From Sabellastarte sp. h YS-2021 (lineage: Eukaryota; Annelida; Polychaeta; Sabellida; Sabellidae): DNA of 64,000 nt. Positions 1 to 62,000 of the stretch are shown one piece after another (the stretch's first letter is position 1; each line of letters opens with the position of its first letter). The notes beneath the pieces are model-generated. The model made no database searches. It worked only from the letters and a program-made list of their open reading frames with translations, and had not been told where the DNA came from. The stretch spans positions 49,946,332 through 50,010,331 of the forward strand of contig OZ024938.1 in assembly GCA_964017235.1 (NCBI GenBank), in the 5' to 3' direction. A program made the translations under genes and the position numbers.

Positions 1-3000
1 GTCCCATTTCTTCATCAGATCGTACAGCTCTGAAACCTGATACACAGTATAAGAGTCATTTTCTATAGCTTTCAAAAGAAAGTCAGGCAAAATTTATATA
101 TGTTATATTGAGAAGGGTAAATGTTAAACCAACTACAATATGTTTATTACATTTATAACCTTCTTTAATTTAAAATTCTCAGTCTAAACCATTTTTCAAA
201 AGATTTAAAACATTCTTTTCATACCTTAGTCTGTCTCTCTGCATTCTCCAGAGCATCTTTTTTCTCCGCAGCCTGGTTGAGTTTCTGGATGAGAGCTGTG
301 ACACGACCTTCCACAAGGTCAATCTGTGAAGGTTCCAGCAGCTTGGTCCTGGCACTTAGAAGAGCGACTGCTCCCTGCATAAAAAAAGGAATAGCAAATC
401 TTTCCCAATATCAAATTTGTTTAAGCATATGAATTTAATTTTTGGCAGTGTTTCTAAGGTTTGATATGACACTGATGTAATATAGGAATAAAAGACGTAT
501 TCTCGTGCTTTTTTTTTTTTTTTTTTTTACACAAAACAAGCTAATTTTATTCAGCGTAAGTCCACCATCATAGTTGCACATAGCTCAATATTATGTTAAA
601 GTATAATCAAAATACAAGAGAGTATTGTATACTGTTGTGTACTCTCAATATCTAGTCAGTTTGATGGGTTCAGTAAATATTCTGAACATGTTCTCCTATA
701 GGGTTTATCTGCATGATGTTCCATAAAGAGACTCCTCTTGTTATGGGTTAATCAAAGCAGCAGTGTTACTAAGTTCTTGTGAGGCAATATTCACACCATG
801 CAGTTTTGTAATTACTCTTATTGTATTTCAGGATCCATAATGTATTTGTATTTGCACCTTCGCGGCCAGTGTTAATACATTAAGTATGCTTTGTTTCTTG
901 AGTTGCTAGATCTGTTGGACAAATAAATGTGTTTTGTTTCTTCTTTGTAATTTTATGACAGGAGGTTTTAGAATTTATTACTGAGCAATGTAGCTAGGTG
1001 GTTATATACATAATAATAATAATTAGATTAATAAACTATCGATTGGCTGAATATTAAAGCCACGAAGGGCTGATTGCTTTAATGCAGCAGATCGATAGTT
1101 TAAAACCATCATAAAGCACGAGAATTTGTCTTTTATTCCTATTCTAAAATGGTTACATTGATATTTTGGTCAAAATAAAGGGATAAGTCTTATGCAAAAA
1201 TCAAAACAAATCCAACACCATGTTGGCTGTTCCATCAATGAAACATACGTGGTGATATGTTGGGTAAAAATTAAGTATTTCTTGCTACTCTATTATCATA
1301 CAATTTATCGAAAATTATTGAGAGATTGTCATTGTAAATGTTTTCAATTTGTTGTGAGCTTTAAAATGATATGTTATTTGTTAAAATCAAGCAAGAAATG
1401 ACAATCTTATGAATATTTAACCACTTATTTTACCGCGAGTCGTTTGTTTACATTTGTACACGAAGGGACGATGCACGTGGAATTCAACAGCGTTGTTTTA
1501 TTTACCGTTCTATGTTCGCGATTCCAGCATTGCGCAAAAGACGTCTCTAAGGTCACTGCGCAGCCTACCATTTTAGAATCAGATATACATGTTATACACG
1601 ATTTTGATATCAAAATATCTGAAAAAAATATAACAGGATTATAACCTGACCTCTCCAAGAATATATTTATTCTTGGTATATAACATGACCATGCAAAACA
1701 TGAATACATATACTTACAATAACACTCTTGTTACTCGTCTCTGCAGTAAGAGCTGACTGAAAAACAGAAAAAGGATAATGTTAATAAACATATAGAGTAA
1801 GAAATCTAAAATTCGCCAGGAATCTAAAATTCACCACCTCTAAAACCTTGGTTAATTTTATGAAGAAAATGATGTTTTTGTCTAAAAATTAGTATTTTTC
1901 AATTCAAAAAGTCTTAATTTACTATACAGTCAACAAATCTCACCAGAATTCATTTATTTTATTAGTATTTTCACATGTGGCGAATTTCAGATATGTGGCA
2001 TATTTTAGATTTCTTACTCTAGACATTTTCCAGCACATAACATAAACATACAATAGCTGCTGCTAAAACTCAGATATCAGTGGAATACCTCCACAAGGAA
2101 TTAGTGTTGAGTCAGAACTATAATTCTTAGCAAGCTACAAATCTGAGATGAGAAGGAAACAAAAATCTTGCTATATATTTTCAAAGTAATTATCTTGTCA
2201 AACTAGCCGACAGATGCCACAAGTGACACATATACATTTCTTCCTGGCAATCAAATAAAATACTTCAACACTCATAACTTTACAACATAAAATTACAAAC
2301 CAGTTTTTCCGGTTGTGTCCCCAACAAAGCTTCCATCCTTTCTAATCTCTGCTCCAGATCAGCCATCTAATTACAAAGAAAGTAACACACATTTATTGGT
2401 GAAATCGAACCTGTGGGACTGCAAAATGCTGGATGACTGAATCTTAAGACAACCAAAACAAAAAAATAAGTTATGCCATCTTCAGATTTCATGACTGCAC
2501 CAGTAGTTCAAAATTTCACTTTTACATTTCAGTACAATGGTTTTGATACCAATATACAAGATCTACCACCTAATCCTAATGTTACAATTGCTTCATGTAA
2601 CTCCCAACAACATTTCAAAGGTTATGTAGCGATTTCCTAGGAATAGTACTGGTTTTATATAAAAGACACCAAATAATTCAAGAAACTAGAAAATGCATGC
2701 CACTTATGTTAAAATTATATAAACTTTTCTGAATAAAAAAAATGAACTTCTGAATCAGGACTAGTGCCAAAAAACCTTAAACAATGGTGAATATTTGGGT
2801 TTCATGAGAACAGACCATTCTACATCAACTTACAAATTAAAAAATTTTAGTAAATAGGCTATATTTAACCAGACTCTTCTTTTCTAACTTCCATACCCTT
2901 TAAGTATTTTTCTCCCATTAGCAGGTACTCGCTGATTTATGTATAAAAGGCATTTTTACCCTTGCGCTATGGCTGAACTTTGCCTGTTCTGGTCGATAGT

Positions 3001-6000: not shown

Positions 6001-6888
6001 TCAAGACTTACTGACAGAACAGTCAAGACGAACAAACATAAAACCTAATCATGTCTATATTGTGGCTGTTACATTCCCTCTGAGACTGTCGTGTACTGCC
6101 TTGCCACCAATTATGGTCAGTGTATCAATTATGGTCACCCCCAACCGGTCAAATAAAAGTAAATGCCATGGTGAGGAAAACATAAAGTAATTGTTAACAG
6201 CTAGAGCAATCCTATTCTAAATAACAAAAGATTATTAAAATATATTTTTAAAGGCTAAACATTAAGTTATATTTGCAGAGCACCACAGATCAAACATTAT
6301 TTTCTGTTATATCAGTGGCTAAAATAATGGGGTGACCATAATTGGTATGAAGAAATTCCAGTTGTTTGGGTGATAATAGGGCATTTTTGGTGCAATGTAC
6401 ATGTAGTGGTGGTGGACCAGTTCACGCCCGTGTACCTATTCAAGCCCACCCTCAATTTCCTCAAAGATTTGTGATTTTTCATTGAATAGCTGTCTACCAC
6501 GACATAGATAATTATCAAATTGATCATACACATTGGTAATTTATTGTGTAACTGTGATTGTTTTGGAGAAATTAAGGGGTGGGCGTGAATAGGTACACAG
6601 GCGTGAACTGGTCCACCACCACTACAGAGGAAATTGGTTGTGCTGAAACGAAGGTAAAACTTTGGATTAGTAAAATAAACACACACTAATTAGTATCTGT
6701 AGTGTTATTTTCGTTTATTGAGGCACAGGAATTAATTAATAATCTGAGACTGTCGTGTACGTACAGTACGTATGGATATTTGGCAGTGCAACTACTTACG
6801 GTATTAGTGGTATATACATTCTTACGGTGTACACTCTTTTGATACTCACAATGCCAGGAAGACTTGCGTATTTAGGATCAATAGTCAT
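1..6888 (-). CDS. DCTN2: Dynactin subunit 2 (dynamitin), 11 exons, C-terminus beyond left edge
   Basis: Dynamitin is a shoulder/arm subunit of dynactin, which links cytoplasmic dynein to cargo. Exons in transcript order: 6850-6888, 5285-5353, 4782-4878, 4413-4480, 3935-4033, 3546-3706, 2960-3110, 2301-2366, 1718-1756, 225-374 and 1-36. Together they give 325 in-frame codons, and every junction keeps phase with GT-AG introns. The N-terminus MTIDPKYASLPGI followed by DQPDIYETSDLPE is the family's hallmark start. Further family matches are DFSDRLSKNKRTGYDAP in exon 4, YQLYYRPEQAKFS in exon 7, and coiled-coil-like heptads in exons 5, 8 and 10. Vertebrate dynamitin is about 400 aa, so some 75 residues are missing to the left. 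The exon-8 donor (GTTTGT) is weak. The start ATG at 6888 is the only one that gives the conserved N-terminus. The gene is divergent from EEF1B2. Confidence 0.96.
375..1717. other. DCTN2 intron with a 660-bp inverted-repeat element
   Basis: Intron between exons 1718-1756 and 225-374. It carries the element at 482-1142. The remaining sequence (1143-1717) shows only short chance ORFs on both strands and nothing recognisable. Confidence 0.7.
482..1142. mobile_element. Non-autonomous DNA transposon (MITE), about 660 bp
   Basis: The ends are inverted repeats: ATAGGAATAAAAGAC at 482-496 is repeated inverted at 1128-1142. The next bases, ATTCTCGTGCTTT, are also mirrored on the right. A poly-T run of about 20 follows the left arm. 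A smaller internal palindrome, AACTATCGAT and ATCGATAGTTT, lies near 1034-1102. No coding capacity is seen. The superfamily is not assigned because target duplications are unclear. Confidence 0.75.
1793..2021. mobile_element. MITE family E, copy 1 (TAGAGTAAG ends)
   Basis: About 229 bp with termini TAGAGTAAG and CTTACTCTA. The left arm has AATCTAAAATTCGCCA twice, spaced 18 bp apart; the right arm carries decayed inverted copies. TA at both ends fits a TA target duplication. A second copy is at 26265-26493, so the boundaries are supported by comparison. It lies in the DCTN2 intron upstream of exon 1718-1756. Confidence 0.88.
3180..3330 (+). repeat. Degenerate tRNA-derived SINE
   Basis: Contains an A-box-like stretch near 3190, a B-box-like GAGTTTGATTCCT near 3236, and the tail segment ATATGACCCTGGCTGTT shared with the SINE at 42302-42500. 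No flanking duplication could be seen. It lies in the DCTN2 intron between exons 3546-3706 and 2960-3110. Confidence 0.6.
3707..3766 (-). repeat. Short tandem duplication of a DCTN2 splice acceptor
   Basis: On the minus strand the acceptor TTGCTTATTTATCCAG before exon 3546-3706 is preceded 34 nt upstream by a near copy, TTGCTTATTTATACAG, at 3741-3756. Use of the upstream AG would add 34 nt and shift the frame, so the proximal site is taken as real. Confidence 0.8.
6094..6353. mobile_element. MITE family C, decayed (TACTGCCTTG left end)
   Basis: The left arm starts TACTGCCTTGCCACC and holds CAATTATGGTCA twice at 18-bp spacing, ending in CACCCC at about 6141. The inverse, GGGGTGACCATAATTGGTA, lies at about 6330-6348. 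The outer right terminus is lost. The left tip equals that of MITE family B. An ORF over part of this region (5843-6190) is judged fortuitous. Confidence 0.6.
6404..6624. mobile_element. MITE family D, long near-perfect inverted repeats
   Basis: Termini are TAGTGGTGGTGGACCAG and CTGGTCCACCACCACTA. Each arm continues for about 50 bp with two related motifs, TTCACGCCC and TTCAAGCCC (left) or TTCACGCCC (right), 18 bp apart. TA at both ends. No coding capacity. It lies between the MITE C remnant and the DCTN2 start. Confidence 0.9.
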
Positions 6889-8368: not shown

Positions 8369-11300
8369 ATGGGTTTTGGCGATCTGAAAGCAGACTCTGG
8401 ACTGAAAGTTCTGAACGAATTTTTAGCAGACAAAAGTTACATTGAAGGGTACTGACTTTGGGTATTTGTATCATTAATGCATGGATACGTAACTGTCGTC
8501 CATTGCATTTAAGAGTGTGTATTATCGCCCAAGCCGGTATTCCAAACGCAGTGGTTAAATCGCGTAACTTTCTCGCTAAATGCTGTGAAATGATTTTATT
8601 GGTTGTTTTTTTATTGATAGTTTCTATACTGCCTTGCTACCAATTATCGCCACCGGAAAATAAAACATTCATATTTCAGTTATGGTCACACATTTTGAAA
8701 GCCTTTCATTGTGTTTCTGTTCTATCCGCTGTTGAAATAGTTTTACCATGTTTGCTAGACTTTGGTCAAGTTATGTGTATTTGAATTTTGTCTGGCGATA
8801 ATTGGTACCCGGCGATAATTGGTGGCAGGGCAGTATTGTTAGGAAACCCCAGAGGAAATCGGTGACCTCATATCTTCTCATGAATATTAATAAGTTGAAT
8901 TTTATGGCCATGAGTTTACGACATTACTGATTAGGCATAACTTGGCCATGGACATAAGTTGGCTGCCACTCATTTGAATGTGTCAAACAGACAAATGTGT
9001 GGTTGCACAGGATTTAAAACTGGTACTTATAATAGACCATTCAAGAATGATACAGGCCTGTAGATTTATAGATATTTCAAAATATGATGGCGGCCAACTT
9101 ATGTCCGCGGCCAAGTTATGCCTAGATGCAGTAGTGTGCAGTGTGAGATTCTCGCAAAAGTGATTTCATTCCCCCCTTCTTGCAAGTTGTGTGTGGAGAC
9201 AGGATTGATATCTCTGTTACTTATACTTTGTAGGGGTGTGACGAGTACAAATAATTTGGGTCAGTTGCTCGCAGGCAAAAAACCGACTCGACATCGAGCC
9301 CTCGCGAATTTTAGTATCCACCATTACAGGAAATAACATGCAATATGGCGACTCACTTAAACAACAAAAATATAAAGATAAAAGCTTTGAATTGCGTGAA
9401 TTAGCTGATGTCATCATATAATATACTTAATATTATGTTAAAAATGGTGGATTATGTGATTTAACGCCAGCAAGGTATGTTATTTATATTTTATTTCCTA
9501 AAAAACATAAACGCTTCAATAGGTTGCTATGTGCACACGAGTAGTTGACCCTTAAATTTGGATTGAATTTTTGTTAGATTTGCCTCGCTTGGCGAGTGCC
9601 GACTGCTCGGTCGCACCCCTAATACTTTGTGACAAAATATTTGTACCACTTCATAGACAGTTATAAAATTGATCATACGCATTATGGTAGTAATTTTAGG
9701 GGCCACGGTGGCAGAGTGGTAACACTCTCGCCTCCCACCTCTGAGGTCGGGGTTCCATCCCCGTCATGGCCTTAAGTGGGAAAGCTGGTAGTTGCTTGCC
9801 GTTGGTCGGCAGTTTACAGTACAGAACCCTAATGAACTCTAATGTACTGGTTTCCTCTGCCCTTCCAACTACCCGTCGTGATATGACCTGTACAGTGTTG
9901 AAAGCGACGTTAAAACCCCAAATAAATAAATAAATATAGTAGTAATTTTAAACCATGACTGTCTGATCAATTTAGGGGTGGGAGTGAATTGGAATACCAT
10001 CACTATGTTGTGCAGAATTAAGTGACGGGAATGCTTTATTGTTGAAAACAATCTACATAATATTTTTCCTGCTATTAGTGATTCAAACATGAAAAAGAAA
10101 TTGTGTGCAAGTTGTAAGGTGTGAGTCATTTTTGGTCAAGATTTGCACACATTGAGATACTAAATTTTAATCTCCTGGGTTGTTGCAATACCATGCATTT
10201 CATGATATTGTGTGTCAAAATTCATTAACCCATTTTCTTCATAAATTTACAAGTGGGATTTTGGCAAAATTTTTGACCCAAAGGGTATCTGTGAAGACTA
10301 GCCTTTCCAAGTTTCAACAAATATTTCACTTGCCAAAAATGGCGGCCATTTTTAATTTTCGATTTTTTTTTCAAAAATGCAAAACACAAAAATCCTTGTA
10401 TCTCGAAAAGCGATTTCAACGAAATTTTTGACCCGCAGGGTATCTGTTCTGAGTAGATGACCCAATTTTCAAAAATATTTTGTCCTGCAAAAAATGGCAG
10501 CCATTTTGAATTTTCGAATTTTTCGCAAAAATTGCAAAACACAAAAATGCTTGTATCTCGAAAACTGTGCGAGACAGAGCAATTTCAGCAAAATATTTGA
10601 TCCACAGGGTATCTGGGAAGTCTATCCTTTCCAAGTTTCAGCGAATATTTCACTTCCCAGAAATGGCGGCCATTTTGAATTTTTGAATTTTTTTCAAAAA
10701 ATGCTTGTATCTCCAAAACCGTGTTAGAGCGAATTCGGCAAACTTTTTGACCCACATGGCATCTGTGAAGACTAGCCTTTCCAAGTTTCAATGAATATTT
10801 CACTCGCCAAAAATGGCAGCCATTTCTTTGGGTATGTAAGCAAACTACCCTACCCAATTTCCCCCCAAAATTTCCCCTTCCCAAAAATGGGGGTCATTGT
10901 CAATTTTCAAATTTGTGACAAGAAATGCAAAACAACAAATTCTCTCTCCTTAACCATGCAAGATAGAGCAATTTCATCAATATTTTTCAAACACACTGTA
11001 TCCAAGATAACTACCCTACCCAAGAACTACTTTTCATATATTCTGGCTTTGTTGAGCTATAAGCAGAACTTGTATAGTGCTACATATGCCGGGCCAGCAT
11101 ACTGCTTAAACGAAAGGATGAGTGCTTTTTTCATATATCTATGTAGAGCAAAAAAAAAAAGAAGATGATATGGTATAAATCTGATTGAAGTATGATGAGC
11201 TATAAGCAGAACTTTCTTACATGATTAAGCTGCCATTATTTCTCCTTTTTGGGACGGTTTTTGCCATGCAAAAACAATTGCTTTGCTTTGCAAGTGATCC

Positions 11301-26264: not shown

Positions 26265-26493
26265 TAGAGTAAGAAATCTAAAATTCGCCAGGAATCTAAA
26301 ATTCGCCACCTCTAAAAGCTTAGTTAATTTTATGAAGAAAATGATGTTTTTGTCCAAACATTGGTATTTTTCAGTTCAAAAAGCCTTAATTTACTATACA
26401 GTCAACAAATCTCACCACAATTCATTTATTTATTAGTATTTTTTACATGTGGCGAATTTCAGATATGTGGCGAAATTTAGATTTCTTACTCTA
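26265..26493. mobile_element. MITE family E, copy 2 (TAGAGTAAG ends)
   Basis: TAGAGTAAGAAATC and GATTTCTTACTCTA termini with TA at both tips. The left arm has AATCTAAAATTCGCCA twice at 18-bp spacing; the right arm has GTGGCGAATTTC and GTGGCGAAATTTAG. It aligns end to end with 1793-2021. Confidence 0.9.
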
Positions 26494-28790: not shown

Positions 28791-28799
28791 GCCTCTGAT

Positions 28800-29850: not shown

Positions 29851-29989
29851 AGATGAGCTGATTATCCCAAAAATGTAAATTCAGGATTTTTAATATACAC
29901 AACATGGTCTTGATCTTTAAAAAAAAAATTTCACTACCTTTTCTTTTGGTCTGGCCCTACTGACAAAAAATTCATAAAGATACATTATT

Positions 29990-41995: not shown

Positions 41996-43680
41996 CAAAA
42001 ATATCTGTGCCAAACATTTGTGAAGTGGGTCAATTTTTCAGTCAAAAATACCTTTCCAAAAATTCATATTTTGACCAAATCAATGTGTTATTGGATTTAT
42101 AATAGTTAAAAGTTCACAAAAAATAATAAATAAAATAAAAATAAAAAATAAATTTATTTTTAATAATTTAAATTATTAAATTTAACAGACATCAAAACAT
42201 GATATCACAATCTGATCTTTTATAATTTAGTATATGTACTGTAAAACTTTTCCATACCTTGCCACTGAAAGAAGCTATATATATTCCATTTATTTAAATG
42301 TGAATATTGCCTTGTCCTTGAGCGTTTTTGTGGCAGGTGATGAACTTCACTAGGGTGACGAAATTCACTGGCCCACCAGTAGTTACTTGCCGCTGCCCGC
42401 TGGTTTACAGTGTGGTGTGCACTGGTTTCCTCCACCTACAAACTACCTGTCGCAATATGACCCTGGCTGTTGAATGCGACGTAAAACAACAAATCAAAAT
42501 CAAAGCAATTACATATGGTCGCCTATGGTGTTTTTGTGTCATTGCAGTTTTCATGCATTTTGTTTTCCATGGGGTTCCAAATAAATTATACTGAAAAATT
42601 CTAGTTTTGCTTCGATTAATATTTCTTTTCACAAACAATTTATGTACAAGTGAACATGTGATAGAAAATCAATTTTACAGAAGACTGCTGCGTGACACAT
42701 TGATTTATTGCTGTGACTTCAGAACAGTCACTGACAGGTCAGAAAATAATCGCTTTCAGAACCGCTAATGAAAACGATTAAGAAATTTACAAATTATTTG
42801 CTTTAAGACCCGTTGTAGACAAAAATGTCCTTCCCCTTCATGTCTGTTATAAAATATATATGTGTTAGTTCAGATTAAATGAAAAATTTTTATGTAAGGT
42901 GCAGTAAATCCTGATTTTGTTATGTGAAGTAATATATGAATTTTGAATGCATGGTAATATTCAAAACATCCAAACCATAATTTGGCCATGCCAGATGTCG
43001 TAGGTAAAGAGTGTCGTAATGTTTAGTTTACAGTAATGCTGTTATCTTGTGTCTTTTTTTTTCTCTCTTTATTTTTAAATTTTTTCAAAATATAGGTTTT
43101 TGGTGAATGCTCTGTTGTTCCAACAATGGATCAATGTTGTAATGTTCTCTAGGTATTTTTGCTACATCTTCAAAATGTGAAATTGGAAAAATGGAAAGGT
43201 TATTGTGCGCAGAGTTTGAAAATGATGATCTTTTTACCATATATTTATACATTTCATAAATGTGAAAGCTCGAGCATCTAAAACTTATAGCATTTATAAT
43301 TTAATTTATAATCTTATAATCAGCCCAGTTATAAAATTCCTTTAAATATGAAGCCCCAATAATCACAAGGGCAGCAAAGATCTAAGTTCAAACCCAAGAC
43401 CCAGAGGTCATATAAAGGTCAATTTCACCAGAATTCCCTATTATCTGCTTATCTATTAGAATTTATACTCTTATAAAGTCTTTCGGGAGGTAATTTAAGA
43501 AGTTATATGCAGATATGAATATTCATGAGCAACATTTTTGTTGACTATATTTCATCCATGTTCATTTAATCCCACTTGAGGTCAGGCCATAGCGACCTTG
43601 ACCTTTCAAATATTGTCTCTGTGTTACTAGAACTTAGAGTTGTGCGCATTTGTTACAGAGCTTGGAGAAATTAAGAACAT
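41996..43680. other. Intergenic, one SINE fragment
   Basis: Contains an AT-only tract near 42118-42186 and the SINE remnant at 42302-42500. Nothing else is recognised. Confidence 0.5.
42302..42500 (+). repeat. SINE body fragment
   Basis: Has GTAGTTACTTGCCGCTGCCC, CACTGGTTTCCTCC and the end ATATGACCCTGGCTGTTGAA with AAATCAAAATCAAA as tail. The tRNA head is lost or diverged. Same body type as 48822-49033 and 3180-3330. Confidence 0.7.
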
Positions 43681-43736
43681 TTTTTGAGATATAAGTCAGT
43701 GGAAATTTTTTATCCTTTTAAAAAAAAATAAGTGCA

Positions 43737-43820
43737 ACCTCAGACTGAGAGGCCTGGGTTTGATTCCCAGTGATGTGTAAATCAAGACATCATAGCTCAA
43801 TGATAGAGCACTTAGTCTGG
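43737..43820 (+). other. Permuted tRNA-like module, copy 1
   Basis: A tRNA-like 3' half (43737-43778) precedes a 5' half (43787-43820), joined by a short linker. The 3' half has an anticodon-stem strand CTGAG, a perfect 5-bp T arm CTGGG-TTTGATT-CCCAG and an acceptor strand TGATGT. The 5' half has ACATCA, which pairs with it, and an A-box-like TAGCTCAATGATAGAGC. Not a functional tRNA in linear order. Confidence 0.7.
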
Positions 43821-45215
43821 GTGTTTGCAATTGCAAGCAAATTAAATATTAGTTAAATCTAGAATGTGCGTCCGTGCGTGCGTCAGTGGGTCATGCAGTG
43901 TTCTCTGAAACTGCTACAGTTACACATTTTTGGTAAATTACAAGTCCTAATGAATTTTTATGCTCTTCAATATTTTTTAGGTTTGGTGATCTTTGGCCTA
44001 CTCTTGAGTGAGTAATAGCTATTTTAGCTAATATAATTATATGGCTTATAACTCTGAAACTATTGCATTTAGAGTATTTTGTTCCAAGATGTTGTTCAGC
44101 TACTTTCTCCACAGCTACAACATGGTCAGTAGTTTGGAAGTGTATCTCCATAGCTAAGTAATAGCTACTTTTTCAAGTTTTAATGATAAGCATAATGAGT
44201 AAATGGCTTATATCTTCAAAAGTATTGCAGCTACACAATTTCTGTCAAATATGTTGTTCATGTACTCTTTTGTGAACTGTAACATATTTAAGTTTCACAA
44301 CTGTTGCTCATTGACAAGTGAGTAATGGCTATTTCATTGCTACTTGTGGTGAAAATGTGAAAAATCACAAATATCTTGCAAACCGTAAGAGATAGAGCAA
44401 TTTACAGTGAATTTTTGATCCTCAGGATAGTACAAGAGTGTCCTGTGCAAAGGGCTAAAATTTGGATTTTCGCCACTTTTGGTAGCCATTTTAGATTTTT
44501 GCGGAAAATGAAATGGTGTGAATAACTCGGAAAAGATATTTCTTCCCCTGTAATGCACGGCGGGAGATAAATACCGCGGCAGTGGTCTTGTTTATTATAA
44601 ATTGACAATACAAAAGTTGTCACCTATTAGTTAGGGAGTGCAGTTGTACAACATCTTGGTATGACTTTGACTTGACCTTTGACCATGCTGCAGTGACCTT
44701 GACCTTTAAAATCATTTCTGAGCCACATATGTAGTTTTACTTAACTGTGCTATTTCTATTATCGTATTTTTCAATGTAACACTTTATACATACAAGATAA
44801 ATGACACAAACACAAGATACAATAAACTTACTTTGACATGAACTGTTTGGGATCTAGACAACTAGTGCTGACAGGCGCAGGAATCTGAAGACACAAGTCA
44901 CAGCAGCCGATTGAATCACTGTCTGCTTAAGGCGTAGGTCCACTTCCTCGAACCTAAAGGTGCGGTCACAATTGCGCGATCGGCAACAGTCACGATACCA
45001 TTGACACATTTGAATACATTGTACATTTGACAACAGTCACGATACCAGTGACACATTTGAATACATTGTACAGCTTCTTGTATTGTCTTGTATTTATGTT
45101 GTGTACATAATCATGATGTAAAAAGCAAGAAAATAGAGCTGTACAATTAATATGGCAAGGTCTAAAGTCAATGTAGATTTAACTTAGTGCTTATTTTGCT
45201 TCCATTTGCATACAC

Positions 45216-45299
45216 CCAGACTGAGTGCTCTATCACTAAGCTATGATGTCTTGATTTACACATCACTGGGAATCGAACCCAGGCCTCTCAGTCTGAGGT
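45216..45299 (-). other. Permuted tRNA-like module, copy 2
   Basis: Inverted relative to copy 1. On the minus strand the 3' half (45299-45258) has T arm CTGGG-TTCGATT-CCCAG, and the 5' half (45249-45216) has ACATCATAGCTTAGTGATAG. The B box GGTTCGATTCCC is canonical, so this is the best preserved copy. Confidence 0.75.
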
Positions 45300-46491
45300 A
45301 ACACTTAATTTTTTATAAGAATAGATAAACAATTTCCAACAAAATAGTTCTGCATCTCAAAAAATATAAAAAACTTTTTTTTCATGCATACCTGCAAAAT
45401 TAAGGCATAATAGATTTACAGTAGTGGGTGTATGTTTCCATCTTATGTTAAAGCAATTTATATATTGAAATCGGACATAAAAAAATTACTCAAAAATCAG
45501 TCATTGAACTTATATCTGCTAATCTTTTATATCTGGAAAGCTTTGGATATGCACTTTCTTGTGGTCTTTATTTGGCCGAAATTGATTGATAAATGCCAAT
45601 GCGGAGCCTAGGTCGGGAACAAGAGTCGGGGAGGGGTCGGGAAAATATCAAACATGTTTCATATTTCACCGACTCTCCTTGACAGGCCAGGGAACTTACA
45701 ACTGACCATGCATGTAAACACAAGTACTACTGGTTGAATCTATATGAAAGAAAAAAAATCCATAAAATTTTGAGACTTATCCGGATCACCACCTGCATAC
45801 AAAAACATTAAAAAAAAAAGTAAAACTCTATCTTGGATAAAATAAGCCCCTTCATGAAATAGGCCTCATGCAGCAGTGTCTTAAATTTATAAAGTGAGAT
45901 TCAGGTACATACAAAGGATATTTCATTTTTGACCAATGTCTTGTTTTGAAGTAATCACAATTAAAAAGGCTTTAAATCACAAATCTTTACTTTTATTTGG
46001 CATTATCAACCTGGTTGCAATACAGGACTGGTCTTCCTTTTGTTCACAGTCTCTGATGTCATTATATTAACATAATGCATTGCATTTGATGACTTTGAAT
46101 ACAACTATAGCTCTAAAATGTACCAGTATAGATTAGGTACACTTGAGGACATTATGAAACCATGTTACTGGGAAAAAAAATCACTTCCTGGTTATCTTTC
46201 TTGTCCACTTCAAAACTTTAACTTGTGATTACGTAGTTATTTCTGCATGAATTTTAATGCAACAAATACGAGCATATTCTGTGTAAAAGTAGCTTTCCAT
46301 TGATGTATAGTACATACCTGTAGGTTACATATTTACGGCAATATCAGTATTTAAAAATCCGCAATTGTTTACATTAATTTAAATTTCGCGCTAAATATAC
46401 ACCACCAATCAAAACAGGAAGTCTTTTTGCCCTCCGGTTTCCACGTTTGTTGTATTTCCTCGACTTTGTTTACAAACACCGTTTCGTTCTA

Positions 46492-47475: not shown

Positions 47476-48265
47476 CCCAGATAGCAAGACTCTGTACTGC
47501 TTCTCTTCATAAGTTGGCCGCAGTCATAAGTTGGCCACCCACCACAGCTTCACAGGGCTTTAACATGAGTGGCCTACTACACTCTGAAACCACGTATTAT
47601 TGTTGAACTTATTATATGCAACATTTTTCAGTAGTGTACAATAACCTATTTGTTTTTCTGGAGCCTGTAGATGAGCGACGGCCAACTTATGACTGCGGCC
47701 AACTTATGAAGGGAAGCAGTAGGTGGCATAGCTGTCGGTCCGACATTGGCTGTAGGTGGTGGCCAGCCATTGGCGTGACCGGCTGATAGTCAGTGGTCCA
47801 CCATTGGTAGCTAACAATAAGGTTTTCTGGTGGTCCTTCAATGGCCCACTGTCGACAGCCAATGATAAGCTTTTCTATTGGTCCACCAGTGGACCACCTT
47901 CAGTAACCAACAATGTTGACTGGTGGCTCACTAGTGGCCCACTGTTGGGTGCCTTTTATGGTGGTTCTGTGGTGGCGTCACCAGCTGATAGGCAGTGGTC
48001 CACTGTTGGCAGCCAACAATAAGGTTTACTGGTGGTCCATCAGTGGTCCACTGTTGGCAGCCAATGATAACATTGAATATTGTTAAATATTGTTAAATAA
48101 TATGTCAGAAAACAATAGTTGAGGTTGCTTATGAAGTTATTTATAAGCTTTAAAAATTTTGAAAAAAAATGTAGTCAGTGGTCCAGCTGTGGCTCAGAGG
48201 TGGCCCACTGGCTATATTTTGCCACCCATAGCCAACAGTGGCCCACTAGCGTCTTGCTATCTGGG
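47476..48265. mobile_element. Non-autonomous transposon with CCCAGATAGCAAGAC ends
   Basis: CCCAGATAGCAAGAC at 47476-47490 is inverted at 48251-48265. The interior (47722-48250) is an irregular array of GGCAGTGGTCCACTGTTGG-like and CAGCCAA(C/T)(A/G)ATAA motifs, a subterminal repeat structure. MITE A copy 1 is nested near the left end. No transposase. An 88-codon ORF here is a product of the repeat. Confidence 0.82.
47495..47721. mobile_element. MITE family A, copy 1 (TACTGCTTC ends)
   Basis: Ends TACTGCTTCTCTTCATAAG and CTTATGAAGGGAAGCAGTA with TA at both tips. CATAAGTTGGCC appears twice at 17-bp spacing in each arm, separated by GCAGT. It is inserted in the CCCAGATAGC element. An opposite-orientation relative is at 55393-55621. 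Confidence 0.92.
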
Positions 48266-48649: not shown

Positions 48650-48735
48650 ACAATTTTAACTGTATTCTTTAAGAACAGTTTTTGAGATATAAAAGTCAGT
48701 GAAAATTTTTATCGTTATTAAAAAAATTAAGTGCA

Positions 48736-48819
48736 ACCTCAAACTGAGAGGCCTGGGTTTGATTCCCAGTGATGTGTGAATCAAGACATCATAGCTCAGT
48801 GATAGAGCGCTCAGTCTGC
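48736..48819 (+). other. Permuted tRNA-like module, copy 3
   Basis: 3' half 48736-48777 with T arm CTGGG-TTTGATT-CCCAG, then 5' half 48786-48819 with ACATCATAGCTCAGTGATAG and a good A box. Directly followed by a SINE. Confidence 0.72.
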
Positions 48820-48821
48820 GT

Positions 48822-49137: not shown

Positions 49138-50269
49138 GCAGTCCTGATTATGGTAGCCATGGTCTGAATAATCCTAGTGATTATGTCTAGGACAAGAAAA
49201 TCATAATGGGATGTGGGTGGTGTGAGCACAATGACTCCATTTGATTGTATTGGCGACCTTGGGTCATTAGGATGTCTTAATAATGTGTCTAGACAACTGA
49301 GTGGATGATTGCAGTGAGCAAACTGTTGATTGTACTAGACTCGCAAATACGACAATTCTCAGTTTAGAATTGCTCAGTCAGACGTGCATGATTGCACTGT
49401 ATTGTTTTTTGAGGTCAGTTCAGGTTGGAATGTCTCAAACCAGCTATTGGCTGCTATAGACCAAATAAATTAAGTAAAATTTGATAAGTTAGTTGATGGA
49501 GTCAAAATTGGCGTCAGTTGGTTGATTTTGTGTTTATCCCAGTTTCTATGTCGACATAATGTGGAAAATAACATGATTTTCCAACAAAATGCCAAAATAG
49601 GGCCCTGGGGATTGGGGTACTTTTACAAAATCATAATTTGGGTTGGGTTTTATATTAGATATATTGTTGAAATCCGAGTATAATATTAATCGCCAAATTT
49701 GCTTTAATATTAGATGATTTTTAAATAAAAAACCAACAAAAAAGTATATGAAGAAAAAAAAAGAAAAGCTGGATCGCTGTCTGGATCATCTGGATCTGCG
49801 CTTGGCAGAGGTCTGCGCTCTCCGAGAGCTCTTGTTTTTAAAAATGCAACAATGTGCAAACAAAATGTTTTTACAACACACCCCTTAAGGGCTGTCAGGA
49901 TATAGTGGGCCACAACTGGGTTACTGCTGGAACACTGACCAATATAAACTTCATAAGCAACCTTGACTATTGTCATGCCACCAGAGAACCACCATGCAGT
50001 ACATTGTACAACATCTTGGTATGACTTTGATTTGACCTTTCACCATGCTGCAGTGGCCTTGACCTTTAAATTTTTTTCTGGGCCACATACGTAGTTTTGC
50101 TTAACTGTGCTATTTCTATTGACACTTATACTTGAATACATTGTATAGCTCCATGTATTGTCTTGTATTTATGTTATGTACATAACCATGATGTAAAAAG
50201 GTATTAATATGGCAAGGTCTAAAGTCAGTGTACAGAACTTAATATTTATTTTGCTTCCATTTGCATACA
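49138..50269. other. Middle part of duplication copy II, no gene
   Basis: No coding evidence. From about 49985 it aligns with copy I from about 44640 (ACAACATCTTGGTATGACTT), and TTGTCTTGTATTTATGTT is shared as well. Confidence 0.55.
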
Positions 50270-50270
50270 C

Positions 50271-50354
50271 CCAGACTGAGTGCTCTATCACTAAGCTATG
50301 ACGTCTTGATTTACACATCACTGGGAATCAAACCCAGGCCTCTCAGTCTGAGGT
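50271..50354 (-). other. Permuted tRNA-like module, copy 4
   Basis: Inverted copy: 3' half 50354-50313 and 5' half 50304-50271 on the minus strand, as in copy 2. The acceptor-stem base change in GACGTC (for GATGTC) weakens one pair. Confidence 0.68.
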
Positions 50355-50455
50355 AACACTTAATTTTTTTGAAAGAACAGAAAAACAATTTCCCCAAAAA
50401 ATAGTTCTGCATCTCAAAAAATATAAACGTTTTTGTTTCATGTATACCTGCAAAG

Positions 50456-51165
50456 GCCGCCATATCACATGTTTAATGACAGGTTATCCTATTAAAAAGG
50501 CCATATATCTGCCCAAATATTGCTCCAAGAGGTTTGGAATTTGAAAACAACTTGTAGGAAGACATGGACAGGGAATCTTTTCCAGGTGTTGAATTTGACC
50601 TTTGACCCCTGCTTCAAGGTTAAATGAGGTCGTCACACTAAAACATCCTTATTTCTCCCTTATTATTGGTGCTATGGCTTCAGAATATAAAGACAGGCCA
50701 TCCAAAGTCCTGCCCTTCAAATGTTTTGCCTCAGAAAAATTTTGCCTTATTTTGAAAAATAAAATGGCCGCCATAGCCAATTATTTAAAAATCATTAAGA
50801 TGCTCTAAAACTTGAAATATTGCAGCTAGCTTCATCAAATATGCGCAAAATACATATGGCTAGGAAAGTTAGCCTGATAGTAATTTAGCCTAGTTTCAAA
50901 AACAAAATGGCCGTCATATCACATGTTACATGGGATTATCCTATTAAAAGGCCTTATATCTCCCTTATCATTGCTACTAGGGGTTCCAAATGTGAAAACA
51001 ACTTATACCAAGTCATGGCCTGAGACTATTTTGAAATTGCTGACTTTTACCTTTGACCCCTTCTTCAATGTCAAGTGGGGTCATCTTACTTCAGAGGCCT
51101 TAAATCTCCTTTAGTTCTCCATTTTACTGATTCTGAGGCGGGAGATAACTGCTGCGGCAGTGGCC
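50456..51165. repeat. Satellite-like insertion related to the 147-bp family
   Basis: Contains AAATGGCCG(C/T)CATA, CTTATTATTGGTGCTATGG, ACCTTTGACCCCTGCTTCAA and TGGACAGGGAATCTTTT, all variants of motifs of the 27-30 kb elements, but with no regular period. Interrupts block Q of copy II. Confidence 0.65.
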
Positions 51166-52651
51166 TTGTTTTTTTTATAAAAATAGATAAACAATTTCCA
51201 ACAAAATAGTTCTGCATCTCAAAAAATATAAAAAACTTTTTTTTCATGCATACCTGCAAAATTAAGGCATAATAGATTTACAGTAGTGGATGTATGTTTC
51301 CATCTTATGTTAAAGCAATTTATATATTGAAATCGGACATAAAAAAATTACTCAAAAATCAGTCATTGAACTTATATCTGCTAATCTTTTATATCTGGAA
51401 AGCTTTGGATATGCACTTTCTTGTGGTCTTTATTTGGCCGAAATTGATTGATAAATGCCAATGCGGAGCCTAGGTCGGGAACAAGAGTTGGGGAGGGGTC
51501 GGGAAAATATCAAACATGTTTCATATTTCACCGACTCTCCTTGACAGGCCAGGGAACTTACAACTGACCGTGCATGTAAACACAAATACTACTGGTTGAA
51601 TCTATATGAAAGAAAAAAAAATCCATAAAATTTTGAGACTTATCCGGATCACCACCTGCATACAAAAACATTAAAAAAAAAAGAGTAAAACTCTATCTTG
51701 GATAAAATAAGCCCCTTCATGAAATAGGCCTCATGCAGCAGTGTCTTAAATTTATAAAGTGAGATTCAGGTACATACAAAGGATATTTCATTTTTGACCA
51801 ATGTCTTGTTTTGAAGTAATCACAATTAAAAAGGCTTTACATCACAAATCTTTACTTTTATTTGGCGTTATCAACCTGGTTGCAATACAGGACTGGTCTT
51901 CCTTTTGTTCACAGTCTCTGATGTCATTATATTAATATAATGCATTGTATCCATTTGATGACTTTTAATACAACTATAGCTCTAAAATGTACCAGTATAG
52001 ATTAGGTACACTTGAGGACATTATGAAACCATGTTACTGGGAAAAAAATCACTTCCTGGTTATCTTTCTTGTCCACTTCAAAACCTTAACTTGTGATTAC
52101 GTAGCTATTTCTGCATGAATTTTAATGCAACAAATAGGAGCATATTCTGTGTAAAAGTAGCTTTCCATTGATGTATAGTACATACCTGTAGGTTACATAT
52201 TTACGGCAATATCAGTATTTAAAAATCCCCAATTGTTTACATTAATTTAAATTTCGCGCTAAATATAGACCACCAATCAAAACAGGAAGTCTTTTTGCCC
52301 TCCGGTTTCCACGTTTATTATTTTTCCTCGACTTTGTTTACAAACACCGTTTCGTTCTATTTATTTATTTTTTTTTGTAGCAGAAAGTAAAATTCGACCT
52401 ATGATAATTTTCTTGCGTTGCCATTTTGGTGGACACATTTATCAAATTAGCAGTCAGAACTGTGTAAATGAATTGTTTAACGAGAAACGTAAAGGAATTA
52501 GCTAGGTTGATATTTTTTGGTTCATATTTAAATAATCTTTTATTATCGCCCAGACATGCCCACTAGGGCAGACTCCCTGCTCAATACTCAGTACTGCTTA
52601 CCAAGTTATTTAGATGTGGTGACCGTGATTCTACTTTACTTGCGTGTAGAA

Positions 52652-53369
52652 CTCCTTCAACAACTGCTAGCCAAACTGAATTCTGTAATGCCATGTCTCG
52701 AGTCAACGTCACCTCTGAACCACCAAGTGGTTATGACACACCCATACCTGAAAATAGAATTTCAGAAGAGACATTAAGGACCCTCAATGCTGTCAGTATT
52801 AAACTGGGACAATCAACTTCCAGACCTGACAACCCCAACAAAAGAAAGAGAGTGGACTCCCCTAACCAAGGTGAAACATCCACTAAGGAGAGATACATAG
52901 ACACCAGGGATCAATACCCACCCCAAGCCAAACCAGTCTACCTTAAACTGAAGGGACTCCATAAGAAAAAGCTGTCTCTAGCCGCCTCCATCAAAGTAAT
53001 GGAAGACAAGCTAGCCAAGAATCAATACCCCACCAGTGTTGACTTTCGATTCAACAGCACCAGGAACCCTATCCTTAAGGATACCTGGGCCAGGGCCATC
53101 AGGACATGCAAAACAGACCTAACCCTGGCACTGATAGATACACTTCAAAAGTGAAGGACATAACCACAGACATATGCAGTTCTCTGTGTTAGAGTGGTGC
53201 ACACCTAAGTTTGAAGCATCCTCCACTTCCAAACGAAGGCGAATTGAGTTGAGCTGGATCTTCAAACTGCACTCTCTACACCCTATTGGCATTAACCAAT
53301 TTGTGTGACTCTGTTTGGCTATAATCCAGACCCTACAGCACTCAGGGGTCCTCCTTTTAATTATCTTAG
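52652..53369 (+). repeat. 718-bp direct repeat, copy 1, with ORF lacking its original start
   Basis: Identical over nearly all of its length to 54560-55277; one difference was noted (CCAGACC versus CCGGACC near 53322). The ORF from Met at 52693 to the stop at 53152-53154 encodes 153 aa, the same frame as the 169-aa ORF of copy 2. The copy-2 start codon lies just outside the repeat and is absent here. Confidence 0.9.
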
Positions 53370-54559: not shown

Positions 54560-55062
54560 CTCCTTCAACAACTGCTAGCCAAACTGAATTCTGTAATGCC
54601 ATGTCTCGAGTCAACGTCACCTCTGAACCACCAAGTGGTTATGACACACCCATACCTGAAAATAGAATTTCAGAAGAGACATTAAGGACCCTCAATGCTG
54701 TCAGTATTAAACTGGGACAATCAACTTCCAGACCTGACAACCCCAACAAAAGAAAGAGAGTGGACTCCCCTAACCAAGGTGAAACATCCACTAAGGAGAG
54801 ATACATAGACACCAGGGATCAATACCCACCCCAAGCCAAACCAGTCTACCTTAAACTGAAGGGACTCCATAAGAAAAAGCTGTCTCTAGCCGCCTCCATC
54901 AAAGTAATGGAAGACAAGCTAGCCAAGAATCAATACCCCACCAGTGTTGACTTTCGATTCAACAGCACCAGGAACCCTATCCTTAAGGATACCTGGGCCA
55001 GGGCCATCAGGACATGCAAAACAGACCTAACCCTGGCACTGATAGATACACTTCAAAAGTGA
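54553..55062 (+). CDS. Unknown 169-aa lysine-rich protein in a 718-bp repeat
   Basis: Starts MSAPSTTASQTEF at 54553 and ends ALIDTLQK with TGA. Visible features: a low-complexity Ser/Thr-rich N-terminus, a basic patch NKRKRVDSP near residue 70 that looks like a nuclear localisation signal, and a basic helix-prone region (LKLKGLHKKKLSLAASIKVM) followed by WARAIRTCKTDL. No catalytic motif or membrane segment. Conserved exactly in copy 1, and found within repeats, so an ORF1/gag-like protein of a mobile element is the best guess. A host gene with a recent tandem copy is possible. I do not recognise the family. Confidence 0.55.
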   Translation: MSAPSTTASQTEFCNAMSRVNVTSEPPSGYDTPIPENRISEETLRTLNAVSIKLGQSTSRPDNPNKRKRVDSPNQGETSTKERYIDTRDQYPPQAKPVYLKLKGLHKKKLSLAASIKVMEDKLAKNQYPTSVDFRFNSTRNPILKDTWARAIRTCKTDLTLALIDTLQK

Positions 55063-55277: not shown

Positions 55278-55392
55278 AACTGTGGCATGTGTTTACTTGA
55301 TAAATGACTGTACTTTGTTTCATCTGTTTAATATAATATTTATCTATCGGTTATTTATAACTTCAATATTACAGTACTGTACAGTACTCACT

Positions 55393-55621
55393 TACTGCTA
55401 CTCTACATAAGTTGGCTGCAGTCATAAGTTGGCCGCGGCTCATCTACAGGCTCCAGAAAGACAAATAGGTTATTGTACACCAATGAAAAATGTTGCTTAT
55501 AATAAGTTTAACAATAATACATGGTTTCAGAGTGTAGTAGGCCACTCATGTTAAACCCCTGTGAGGCTGTGGTGAGGGTGGCCAACTTATGACTGCGGCC
55601 AACTTATGCAGGGAAGCAGTA
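55393..55621. mobile_element. MITE family A, copy 2 (TACTGCT ends)
   Basis: TACTGCTACTCTACATAAG and CTTATGCAGGGAAGCAGTA tips; the CATAAGTTGGC(C/T) pair in both arms at 17-bp spacing. Inverted relative to copy 1 at 47495. Its right TA (55620-55621) is also the left TA of the next element. Confidence 0.9.
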
Positions 55622-56824
55622 GAGTGAGTGATGTAAATTCGCCAGTTTTTTGGCACTTTTTCTTCTGCTACATCAAATCACAAATTTTTTTTCAATTTTT
55701 TGTTTTAATAAATATGGCCTATCCATGCATTATCCAAACCTGGAAAAAAACTCACTTGGACATAGGTTCATTAGAGAGCTGTTATTATTTCATACAAATA
55801 TATCTCAAGCTTGCAAACTCAGTGATCAGCAGTTGACTTGACTACTTCAATTCCTTACTTTATGGCGTAAGTAAATACAATGTAGCTAAACTCAAAAAGA
55901 TTCAAAATGCCCTTTGTAGAATTGTTTTTAGACTTGATAGAACTAGCCATGTCACTCCCTTTCTTCAAAAACTACACTGGCTCCCTATCACATACCGCAT
56001 CTTGTTTAAGTACAATCTAATTACTTTCAAGGCTATCAAGTTCTGTCAACCCATATACCTATCATCCTTGATCAAAACCAGTTGTTTAACATGTGGAAAT
56101 CGTCTTTCTCTTTCCTCAGTCTCTCACAAAAAGGCCATTATTAGGCAAGGTGGCTTCCCCCACAGAATGGAACAGACTTCCACAATCAGTACGATCACAA
56201 CAAACAATAACTTTATTTGTTTAGACTAGCATATCCTCCACCATAGTACATCTCCCTGGCGGGCGCTAATTTTGGGCCTCACCTGATACGTACGTCCCTG
56301 GACTTTCCCTTTTTGACCTCAAGCACATTAGAGGATGTTACATCAATTTTGCGCTATATAAATGTTTCTATTCTATTCTATCTATTTTTTATGAAAATAG
56401 ATCTAAATTCGCCGTTGTTTGAAAAAACTGTTTTTCAAGCATAATAGTGAGATAATACCTACCATACTGAAAAATTTAAGCTAAATAATTATTTTACATC
56501 TTTTCTAGCCAAAAAGTATTATTAACATAGATGTAACTTTTCAAAAGTTTGTCCCAGAGAAGTTTAAAATGTTGGTTGGTATTTGTTAAAAATTGCATAA
56601 TTTACACTCTCTAAAGTCATTTGCAAAAAATTATTATTCAAAAATATAATACTGTGAAAATATAAAATGTTGGACTATGAAATCTTGTAGGGCAATAGAT
56701 AAGTATTTTTTCTTTGTTTATGCAACAAAATTATGACATGTTTTCCACATTTGTGCTGTAAAATTGACAAAAACCAAAAAGTGGCAAATTTACATCCACT
56801 GGCGAATTTACATCACTTGCTCTA
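55620..56824. mobile_element. Family E-like element (TAGAGTGAG ends) carrying a LINE fragment
   Basis: Ends TAGAGTGAGTGATGTAAATT and AATTTACATCACTTGCTCTA. The arms have GTAAATTCGCCAG and its inverse, with a second GGCAAATTTAC copy on the right. At 1.2 kb it is longer than its relatives because a LINE 3' end (55835-56390) lies inside. Confidence 0.85.
55835..56390 (+). pseudogene. CR1/L2-like LINE 3' end, fragment C
   Basis: Frames give YFNSLLYGVSKYNVAKL, KIQNALCRIVF, TPFLQKLHWLPITYRI and a WNRLPQS-like end near 56165, the standard C-terminus of CR1/L2 RTs. The 3' tail GCGCTATATAAATG with ATTCT repeats is typical. 5' truncated, as is usual for LINE insertions. Confidence 0.85.
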
Positions 56825-57474: not shown

Positions 57475-58102
57475 CTCAGAATTAGTGCTGTGAAATCGCT
57501 TCAAATATCGGATTTGATGTTTGGTATCTGTACAAGCTACTGCCTTGCCACCAATTATCGCCAGGTACCAATTATCGCCAGACAGAATTCAAATAGATAT
57601 AACTTCACCAAAAGTAGCATCCCAAGTCTAGCAAATAAGGTAAAACTATTTCCAAAGTGAATGGAAAAAATACACAACAAAAATGCTTTCAAGATATGTG
57701 ACCTTCACTGAAATATGAACGTTTTATTTTCTGGTGGCGATAATTGGTACCCGGCGATAATTGGTAGCAAGGCAGTAGCGAACTTCGGTCTAGTTCAATC
57801 TTCGAAACAATGTTTTCAAAACCAGTTAAAACCCAGAAATCTCACATAAAATCTTGTCACCTTGTCAGCAAAAATATAAAATCCATATATATTTTAAATA
57901 AATTCCACCATATTTTCAACAAAATAAACATGTTTTATAGATGGGCGAAAATAGGATCCATTGGGATGTGGTGTGATGTTGGGGATTTTTAAACGTTTTG
58001 CAAAGTTAGAATTTCAGACGTTTGAAACGAACTCCGAAATCGGGGCAGTAAACGAGCGAACTATCGAACTTCTTCAAACATCGTCGCAGCACTACTCAGA
58101 AT
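57475..58102. mobile_element. hAT-like MITE with 8-bp duplication, containing a nested MITE
   Basis: CTCAGAAT at 57475-57482 and 58095-58102. The element between is 612 bp with tips TAGTGCTGTGA and TCGCAGCACTA. MITE B copy 2 (57538-57777) lies inside, so the hAT insertion is older. Confidence 0.9.
57538..57777. mobile_element. MITE family B, copy 2 (TACTGCCTTG ends)
   Basis: TACTGCCTTGCCACC and GGTAGCAAGGCAGTA tips. ACCAATTATCGCC is present twice at 17-bp spacing in each arm, separated by AGGT on the left. TA at both tips. The most complete copy of the family. Confidence 0.93.
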
Positions 58103-58155
58103 TATGGGTACCCATGTTTTTTTAGTTTATCTCTGTGAAGCTCAAATCATTGTAT

Positions 58156-59065: not shown

Positions 59066-62000
59066 ATCAGCGAACAAATGTGTTTTGAGCATGGCCTCAG
59101 GTTCTACACACTTAGAGAGAACATCAGGAAGCAGCCGTAGAGAGGTAATGTTAAGTCAATGCGTCATTTCTTAGGGCTAGTAATAACAATAATTTCAGTT
59201 TTATAAATTTGCATTTTTGATATTTGGAAGTAAAATCAATATGCCATTTTTTGTTGCATTGGAATGAAGCTTTAACTTGTGTACTAGGGATGGGTGGGTA
59301 TGGGTAGTATGGCCCTGGTATTTCCATTTCAAGATATGTGTAGTGCTGATTATGTCATTGTTCCTTATAAACAAGAAAAGTATGTATGAAAGACAGTCAG
59401 TATCCAGCAAAGTTTCTGTTATTAACCCCAGCCCATAAAGGCTGGGTTTATAGTCGTCCACTGCGCCATCCGGGCAGCGAGCATGAAGCTTGTTCCACAG
59501 CCTAAACCCCTCACAGATTCTCACCAAAGTTTCAGGGTATCTTTATCCCAAGTGGATCTACAGCTGATTAGGTTTTGGGGGGTATCCAGTGGCAACTGTT
59601 GGCATGGCAACACTTTTAAAATTTTTGGGTCTTAAAGTTCGTTCTAAAATCTTTAACGTTTTCTGTAACCTAAAATATTGCAGCTAGCTTCATCAGATTT
59701 GCACAGAATGCAAATGTATAGGAAAGCTTTCCTGAGAGTAATTGTGTCCTTGTTTTGGAAACAAAATGGCCGCCATATCATATTTTTAATGTCAAATAGG
59801 AGGGTCATCATATCAAAAAGGCCTTATATCTCCCTTATAATTGTTTCTTTGGCTTCAAAATATGAAAACTACTTGTAAGAAATCATGGCCTGTGAATCTT
59901 TTGTAGAACATCTTGTGGGTTCTATATACTTCTTACAACAGAAGTTGTTCCTAAGATTTTCTCAAATCTCAATGTTGTTGGCCATTTAGCTATACCTGCG
60001 GGCTGGGGTTCTTGCCTGCTGATGCTGGCTATTTTCTGAACATGTCATGGAGAATGAGATTTAATTCTGATAACTGGTGGTTCATAACGCGGATGGGACA
60101 TTTTAGTATTTCCTGAATATTTTATGCCCTCAATGTAAAATACTTGTGCTCAGATGATTGGAATTTAGATAACACCAGTTTTACTATGTATGAACAGATA
60201 ACATAAATACACCTGTTATTGCTTTTATTGTTTCCATGAATGTGTTGTATCTTAGTATAGATACCTAGTCTTACTTGTTTTTATGCATATTTATATTACT
60301 GTTTTAGACACAAAGTGATGCGACAGTTCAGGAAATAGCAGATATTTCACCAACTGTTAAAAGACTTGTTCTTCATGTACAGGATGATAACTTCACATTC
60401 AGTCCTGGCCAGTGGTTTGTATAGATTACCAAAAAAGTATGATACTGGACATGATAATACCTTAGATATCAAGGATATTTCTATGTAGTTCATTGATTTT
60501 TGAAGTCAGAAGATCAATACTTCTAGTCCAGTTAAGATTTGTAGTTCTTTAGAGAATGCTTCAGTAACCATGTTTATTTTTTTTTTTCAAAAATTGAAGA
60601 AAGAAACAAAAGAATAAAAAATAATGCTTGCACTTTAAAGTAGCCGCACAACTTCATGATGCAAGTGTTTGAAATAATTTTACATGACACGGTAAAGTCA
60701 TTTTTGTGAGGCTTGTAATTTGAGAGTGCAAAAACCCCTTCCATTTCCTTGATTTGTGGAAGATTCTTTATACATTTGTGATCTCTATGACTACAGTAAG
60801 TTATTGATGAAAAAGTGGTACAAATCTTGAGTACATTGGAACGTCTACTATCCGACCTTCTATTCTATGAACTTTCAATTATCTGACCTCAAACCCACTC
60901 TCCAACTTCATTTAAACCTGTTCTTTTAGTCCTATTATCTGACCTAATTGTTACTTCCCCCAAGAAGGCCGGATAATAGAACTTCTATTCCATTTTGTTT
61001 TACTTTTGAGGTTTACCCCCTCCAGTAGTTAATTTCAAATACTGTACCTAATTTCTCATTTACTGCAACAGATGCCAAGTTCAAGAGTTTACTGTATAAA
61101 ATGTTTACATTTTCTTGTTAATACAGGGTGGATTTCTTTGCTCCGGGGGTTACACGGGTGGGTGGATTCTCCATGTGTTCGAGTCCACACAAGCTGAAAT
61201 CACTGCGACTCTTGGATCTGGCAGTAAAGTACAGCCAGCAGGAGCCGGCATTCTGGGTACATACAAAGGTGGGTTTGTGAATACCGTATTTTTTCAAAAT
61301 ATGGCCCAGGCGTTAATTATTATTGTAATTCAAATGGCATCAGACCAGGCATTAAATTGAACCAGGCGTCCTTTTGAAATACAAAAAACAGTGTTATAAA
61401 TTGTAAACAGTGTGCTTGTTACCAGGCGTTAATTTCAACCAGGCGTTTATTTGAACCTGGGCATTATTTTGGAAATTTACGGTAGATGGTTGAGGGAAAT
61501 CTCTCAGAAACTAAGCAAATATCAAATCATTTACTTTTATGGTGTATAATCTCTGTTCCAGAAGTAGCATTGTTATCTTTCTGAGATCAATACTTGTTTT
61601 CTGGGGTGTGAAAGAACGAATATCCTTCATGAACCAGAATCCGATCTACTCCACATTCCGGTCTAAACGGTTTTAATGTCATACTTTTATTGTGTCAAAA
61701 TATTGATGGAAACTATGTACTCTTAAAATAGATGCTTTGTTTGTTACACACACGATTATGTCGGATAAGAAAAGTGCACTAAAATGCTTCAAATGATACA
61801 GCTATAAAAGACTGTATAGTTTTTGTAATAGACTGGAAATAGGTAACAAAATCATATATAACAGTATGTAGTAGAATAGAGTAATACGTATTCTAGAATG
61901 TAAAAGTGAAAGAAAAGCACCTTTTTGGGGGTTTTAATTTTAATATAATTGTCGATGTTCACCTGCAGATGCTGTAAAAATGAGTCAGTTTCTGATATAT

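Follow-up and report, generated by a model that had tools for sequence, protein, structure and literature searches.

We analyzed a 64,000-nucleotide (nt) stretch of the genome of the annelid Sabellastarte sp. h YS-2021 (assembly GCA_964017235.1, contig OZ024938.1, positions 49,946,332 to 50,010,331), hereafter the window. It contains miniature inverted-repeat transposable elements (MITEs) of six families, A, A', B, C, D, and E, which an initial annotation had described as TA-tipped and sequence-unrelated, with a 12–15 bp motif repeated at 17 or 18 bp in at least one arm of each family. Three further elements, F, G, and H, have this layout wholly or partly (Table 1). The MITEs are short (203–240 bp) and non-coding, and have inverted ends and many uniform copies. 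TA was indeed found at all nine coordinates annotated for families A to E, and at both tips of the eight elements with two ends. The longest open reading frame (ORF) of F has no Pfam match. No partner end for G was found within the window; a complete copy with 18-bp spacing lies at L011:179-397.

Table 1. Elements of the window with doubled or related terminal units (window positions)
Element	Position	Strand	Description
A1	47495..47721	.	227-bp MITE; both arms with CATAAGTTGGCC twice, 17 bp apart
A2	55393..55621	.	229-bp MITE; inverse to A1, 92%; inserted at the TA tip of F
A'	8925..9133	.	209-bp MITE; sister family of A, ~68-70% to A across the interior
B1	8627..8835	.	MITE; one 17-bp unit missing from left arm
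B2	57538..57777	.	240-bp MITE; both arms with ACCAATTATCGCC twice, 17 bp apart
C	6094..6347	.	MITE; left pair at 18 bp; right end degenerate, right limit approximate
D	6404..6624	.	221-bp MITE; 18-bp pair in left and right arms
E1	1793..2021	.	229-bp MITE; 18-bp pair
E2	26265..26493	.	229-bp MITE; 18-bp pair; 93% to E1
F	55620..56824	.	1205 bp, TA-tipped; right end a pair at 18 bp, left end one unit
G	42339..42381	-	single end; pair at 18 bp, GTC at nt 23-25
H	61282..61484	.	203-bp MITE; TACCG tips; GCC at nt 23-25 on both ends

Terminal units are doubled at a spacing fixed within each family

The best 12-mer self-match was determined within the first 60 nt of each of 17 arms, the right arm of C not being counted. 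It fell at an offset of 17 in A1L, A1R, A2L, A2R, A'L, A'R, B1R, B2L, and B2R (L and R, left and right arm), and at an offset of 18 in the left arm of C and in DL, DR, E1L, E1R, E2L, and E2R. Consistent with the annotated doubling, 16 of the 17 arms thus repeat a 12-mer at exactly 17 (A, A', B) or 18 bp (C, D, E). The sole arm without a pair, B1L, has lost a 17-bp unit that is present in B2, and in C the pair is confined to the left arm. When each arm was shuffled 400 times, 14 of the 16 self-matches had p < 0.01 over any offset. The value for E1R was 0.035, and DL, with a 9/12 match, gave 0.12 over any offset and 0.0125 if offsets 17 and 18 alone were considered.

The same spacings emerged when the window was scanned blind to the elements: 12-mer repeats at offsets of 8–60 occurred at nine places for offset 17, six for offset 18, and at most five for any other, and 14 of the 15 places at 17 or 18 bp are TA-tipped element ends. 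A scan for the layout behind a TA tip returned 20 sites scoring at least 10/13, including overlapping registers of single ends, compared with 0.4 in Markov sequences. In the following 100 kb there were six places at offset 18, all E-type ends, with other offsets equal or higher; 50 kb of another contig showed no excess at 17 or 18 bp and no such end-like place. TA-tipped inverted pairs were also sought over 214 kb without reference to the motif (10 of 50 doubled, 2.9 expected; offsets 16, 17, 18, 19, and 26); this search was uninformative, as a satellite swamped it and the filter discarded known pairs.

Because other families of the genome double their motif at 15, 16, or 19 bp, the spacing is fixed within a family and is not universal across families; the constancy claimed by the initial annotation holds at the family level. 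An element with a TAGTGGC tip (L010:496-822) has an 18-bp doubling, units doubled at 16 bp were seen at L006:1306 and L010:821 (TACACGGG tip), and a unit doubled at 19 bp at L056:336 (TACATGGG tip).

The units share their end and their distance from the tip

Counting from the TA, the triplet G[C/T]C (GYC) occupies nt 23–25, the end of unit 1, in 15 of 17 arms. The exceptions are A2L, with GCT, and A'L, in which it is shifted by 2 bp. The second unit (nt 40–42 or 41–43) also terminates in G[C/T]C in 14 of 17 arms, all except A'L, B1L, and E1L. Across seven families, G having entered through the GYC filter, comparison of unit 1 gave 149 identities out of 273, against a null mean of 71, a value reached by none of 20000 shuffles. 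Without the last triplet there were 96 identities against 61, reached by 1 of 20000 shuffles. Since the GYC register is shared and likeness outside the triplet also exceeds that of shuffles, we conclude that the motifs of the families are related and have a common GYC end; the view that they are unrelated in sequence is refuted.

Among the further elements, the right end of F has GCC at nt 22–24 and 40–42, i.e., one base closer to the tip. In H, the units of the right end finish at nt 25, 43, and 60, and the left end has only the first.

Copies in the genome keep the spacing

The genome containing the window comprises 1.786 Gb in 647 contigs. When gaps of 1–30 were allowed, 1465 A motif pairs were found (reversed control, 0), and among the 100 listed 99 were spaced exactly 17; the remaining one bridges a junction with a second tip. 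Measurement over genome copies, the check proposed with the annotation, thus upheld the spacing for A. There are 987 exact A pairs, and 16 paired A copies from fetched loci were each 229 bp long, the pattern behind them having constrained the register to narrow limits. The D outer 25-mer is present in 1544 copies, mostly as pairs 221 bp apart among the matches listed, and the C outer 25-mer in 121 (control 0 in both cases). No A or B motif pairs were found in viral contigs. Five same-strand C-type ends exactly 1802 bp apart at G000 C1:9266920-9274152 form a tandem array that includes a C element.

Two Passer-like transposase families carry the same register

The genome was searched for DDE_1 (PF03184; 150 of 804 candidates scored, many with open frames) and with the protein of one locus, L054 (93 rows of matches; 89 of 433 candidates scored). 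The GYC register at nt 23–25 had been set on the MITEs before any transposase end was read. L054 encodes a transposase of 481 amino acids (aa) in which HTH_Tnp_Tc5 (HTH, helix-turn-helix) and DDE_1 exceed the cut-off, and BrkDBD (E 0.00047) and HTH_28 fall below theirs. The distance between its second and third D is 35 residues, and we counted the protein as Passer-like (DD35D plus a Brk/HTH domain) with its Brk match below cut-off. The 5' end of the element has a TACCG tip and GCC at nt 23–25 and 41–43. One copy of a three-exon relative (56–66% identity) has GCT at nt 23–25 and GCC at 41–43 at its 5' end, and GCC at nt 23–25 and GCA at 40–42 at its 3' end. In the genome, all 39 of 39 ends of the three-exon type have a second unit ending at nt 43 when positions 36–56 were permitted (control 0). 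Such an end lies 310–401 bp upstream of 17 of the 24 N-terminal exon matches typed from the L054-protein search; for 22 of the 39 ends, none of the exons listed is within 1 kb. The register is thus carried by two of the three Passer-like families with both ends read; these two have GC[C/T/A] at nt 23–25, and GCC at 41–43 on one end.

The agreement bears on whether unrelated TA-inserting elements could have repeatedly evolved tandem sites ~1.5–1.8 helical turns apart. Such convergence would accommodate the families doubled at 16 bp (L006:1306, L010:821) and 19 bp (L056:336); however, a preference for a spacing is insufficient to explain why both the GYC letters and the distance from the tip agree between the MITEs and two Passer-like families, and we regard convergence as the least probable of the explanations considered.

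Tigger/CENP-B-like elements are abundant in this genome. They have TACAGT tips and, mostly on the 5' side, units repeated 15 or 17 bp apart: L053 (L053:252) doubles its unit at 15 bp behind a TACAGT tip, with the first unit ending in GAC at nt 23–25, the 5' unit is doubled at 17 bp in L044, L045, L049, and L051, and L052 has ACC at nt 23–25 and 40–42. Their number, their 5' doubling, and the triplets of L052 would suit pogo-type MITEs moved by the Tigger/CENP-B-like branch instead of Passer-like enzymes. The TACAGT tips, the mostly one-ended doubling, the variable spacing, and the lack of GCC at nt 23–25 argue against this branch, which we consider an unlikely source, if less so than convergence.

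For three further loci, L050, L055, and L056, no convincing end pair was found. L055 has a 630-aa ORF with HTH_psq and a Tc5 HTH, present in at least three copies among the scored DDE_1 matches. A G stands at the presumed position of its second catalytic D, placed by eye, and the locus could represent an inactive copy or one adopted by the host.

The MITEs are probably of pogo type and moved in trans

The doubled terminal inverted repeat (TIR) unit of ~17 bp known from pogo/Fot1 elements is present, at 17 or 18 bp, in 16 of the 17 arms. Together with the shared register, this suggests that the MITEs are non-autonomous members of the pogo superfamily, probably moved in trans by Passer-like transposases (Brk/Tc5-type HTH plus DDE_1). 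Our confidence is slightly lowered by a 434-aa relative whose element is without the register, and by the second GYC being found in 14 of 17 arms.

Several observations weigh against this origin. The pair at +18 in the 5' end of L054 is a modest 10/13 match (mononucleotide shuffles, p 0.02 over offsets 15–19 and 0.066 over all), and the 3' end has GCA at nt 23–25 and no evident second unit (6/13, p 0.93). The 434-aa relative has TACCG tips with CCC at nt 23–25 and no second unit. The 476-aa and 399-aa relatives yielded no convincing end pair, and a 459-aa relative yielded no 3' end. The tips also differ, being TACTG, TAGTG, or TAGAG in A to G versus TACCG in the Passer-like elements; only H has TACCG, and the element sharing these tip letters, that of the 434-aa protein, is the one without the register. 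Finally, the ends listed for A (100 each of the 987 exact and the 1465 gapped pairs), C (100 of 121), and D (100 of 1544), those of A and D coming from the first contig only, were compared by eye with the DDE_1 and L054-protein search matches; no element with an A to G motif and a transposase inside was seen among them. A full-length element sharing the ends of a MITE family, which the initial annotation had anticipated, was thus not found for A to G among the listed ends. Outside the organism studied here, one fungal study found TIRs without direct repeats (PMC4188875), so the doubled unit is not a universal trait.

Two candidates were set aside. A 5' tip that fits the layout lies 923 bp upstream of the 459-aa relative (reverse complement of L063; 12/13 at +18); with no 3' end found, it may belong to a neighboring element. 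Of the 25822 TA starts within 150 kb, 6 have such a tip, and 5 of these are E ends. A long A pair (C1:107566263-107568217) was rejected as an autonomous element, as it has a nested element inside and no ORF longer than 106 aa. One A MITE lies ~3.4 kb from a DDE_1 match. Empty sites for eight elements were sought in the window and none was found; for G, a repeat relative extends to the TA and ends there, on one side only.

How would such ends work? Behind its TA tip and a spacer, each would have the unit twice in tandem, with GYC at nt 23–25 and again 17 or 18 bp inward. As the second unit repeats the sequence of the first, a single kind of domain would be expected to recognize both, and two transposase copies per end would be the natural reading: the N-terminal domain of one copy would read one unit, and the two copies would stand side by side. 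Pairing and cleavage of the ends would follow, with insertion at TA. The letters of the units would drift with the specificity of the enzyme, and the distances from the cut site to the units, set by the protein complex, would stay and may be regarded as its property. Binding of the units, two copies per end, mobilization in trans, and TA duplication are what we infer from the ends, their spacing and copy number, and the transposase elements of like layout.

The initial annotation had proposed a Tc1/mariner-like source, with one transposase architecture of diversified specificity making two DNA contacts per end. Tc1/mariner elements are common in animals, the TA tips fit, and the genome was not searched for Tc1/mariner families. 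In Tc1/mariner sensu stricto, each of the two HTHs of a paired domain would touch one unit, but identical units are unlike sites for two different HTHs and suggest one domain bound twice, and the layout turned up on elements with DDE_1 and a Tc5-type HTH, as befits the pogo superfamily. A Tc1/mariner source sensu stricto is therefore improbable, and the ends look more like those of the pogo superfamily. What holds of the proposal is one layout of fixed spacing, varied letters, and TA tips that is common to transposase-bearing elements of the genome, with the correction that the motifs share their GYC end.

More tentatively, the pogo-type MITE families may represent a radiation within one genome, in which the transposase complex locks the geometry of the ends (units finishing at nt 25 and 42/43) and letters diversify per family; we hold this possible, though less likely than not. 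If true, the families are a natural experiment, and pairing ends with enzymes could yield a specificity code of Brk/Tc5-type domains. The register (TA tip, GYC at nt 23–25, repeat at +17/18) would then find and class pogo-type MITEs of little other likeness, and co-evolution of transposase specificity and element ends would be testable at fixed geometry.

Other features of the window and genome

A repeat of 147-bp period occurs both in tandem and dispersed (window 27492-30785, 50495-51113, and 59816-59903); of the 15 copies that make up a 143-nt family, the array contains 13. Another repeat (43707-43851, 45191-45329, 48720-48821, and 50240-50374; TAGAGCACTCAGTC...) looks by eye like a tRNA-derived short interspersed nuclear element; ARAGORN found no tRNA there. 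Local duplications of 97–100% identity link 45309-46470 with 51171-52338, and 52652-52951 with 54560-54859. Among long ORFs of the window (10 of 24 scanned), four cellular or retroelement domains were found, as would suit an animal genome: zf-HIT, EF1_GNE, NAD_binding_1, and RVT_1. Elsewhere in the genome, TAAAGGTAGTATACACTGCC units whose halves are inverted make up a satellite-like array at L035-L036 (G000 C19:50070332-50090331), with a period near 47–50 bp.

Comparison with known systems

The Drosophila pogo transposase reportedly recognizes a 12-bp TIR sequence, of which each end is said to have two copies, the outer one ~14 nt in; the letters differ from those of the window MITEs. In the literature, searched by title and abstract start with most subscription journals outside the search, we found no description of animal pogo-type MITEs with doubled units.

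The closest parallel is fungal. The pogo/Fot1-type elements Trem, Aft1, and Tan1, compared there with Fot1 and Pot2, have two 17-bp direct repeats per TIR, and their transposases have HTH, CENPB, and DDE domains, with the repeats proposed as contact sites (PMC2836289). The doubled 17-bp units are alike; the fungal elements, however, are autonomous and have other letters (PMC2836289). Passer belongs to the pogo superfamily and has a DD35D motif; as far as the portions available describe it, its TIRs are short and no doubled unit is mentioned (PMC9976928, PMC7386202). L054 resembles what is described of Passer in its Tc5 HTH, DDE_1, 35-residue D-D spacing, sub-cut-off Brk match, and TA tips, and the tips of A to G differ from those of L054. 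Doubled units in pogo-type TIRs are thus already known, from fungi. What is new here is that a single genome holds several such families, their register fixed and their letters drifting.

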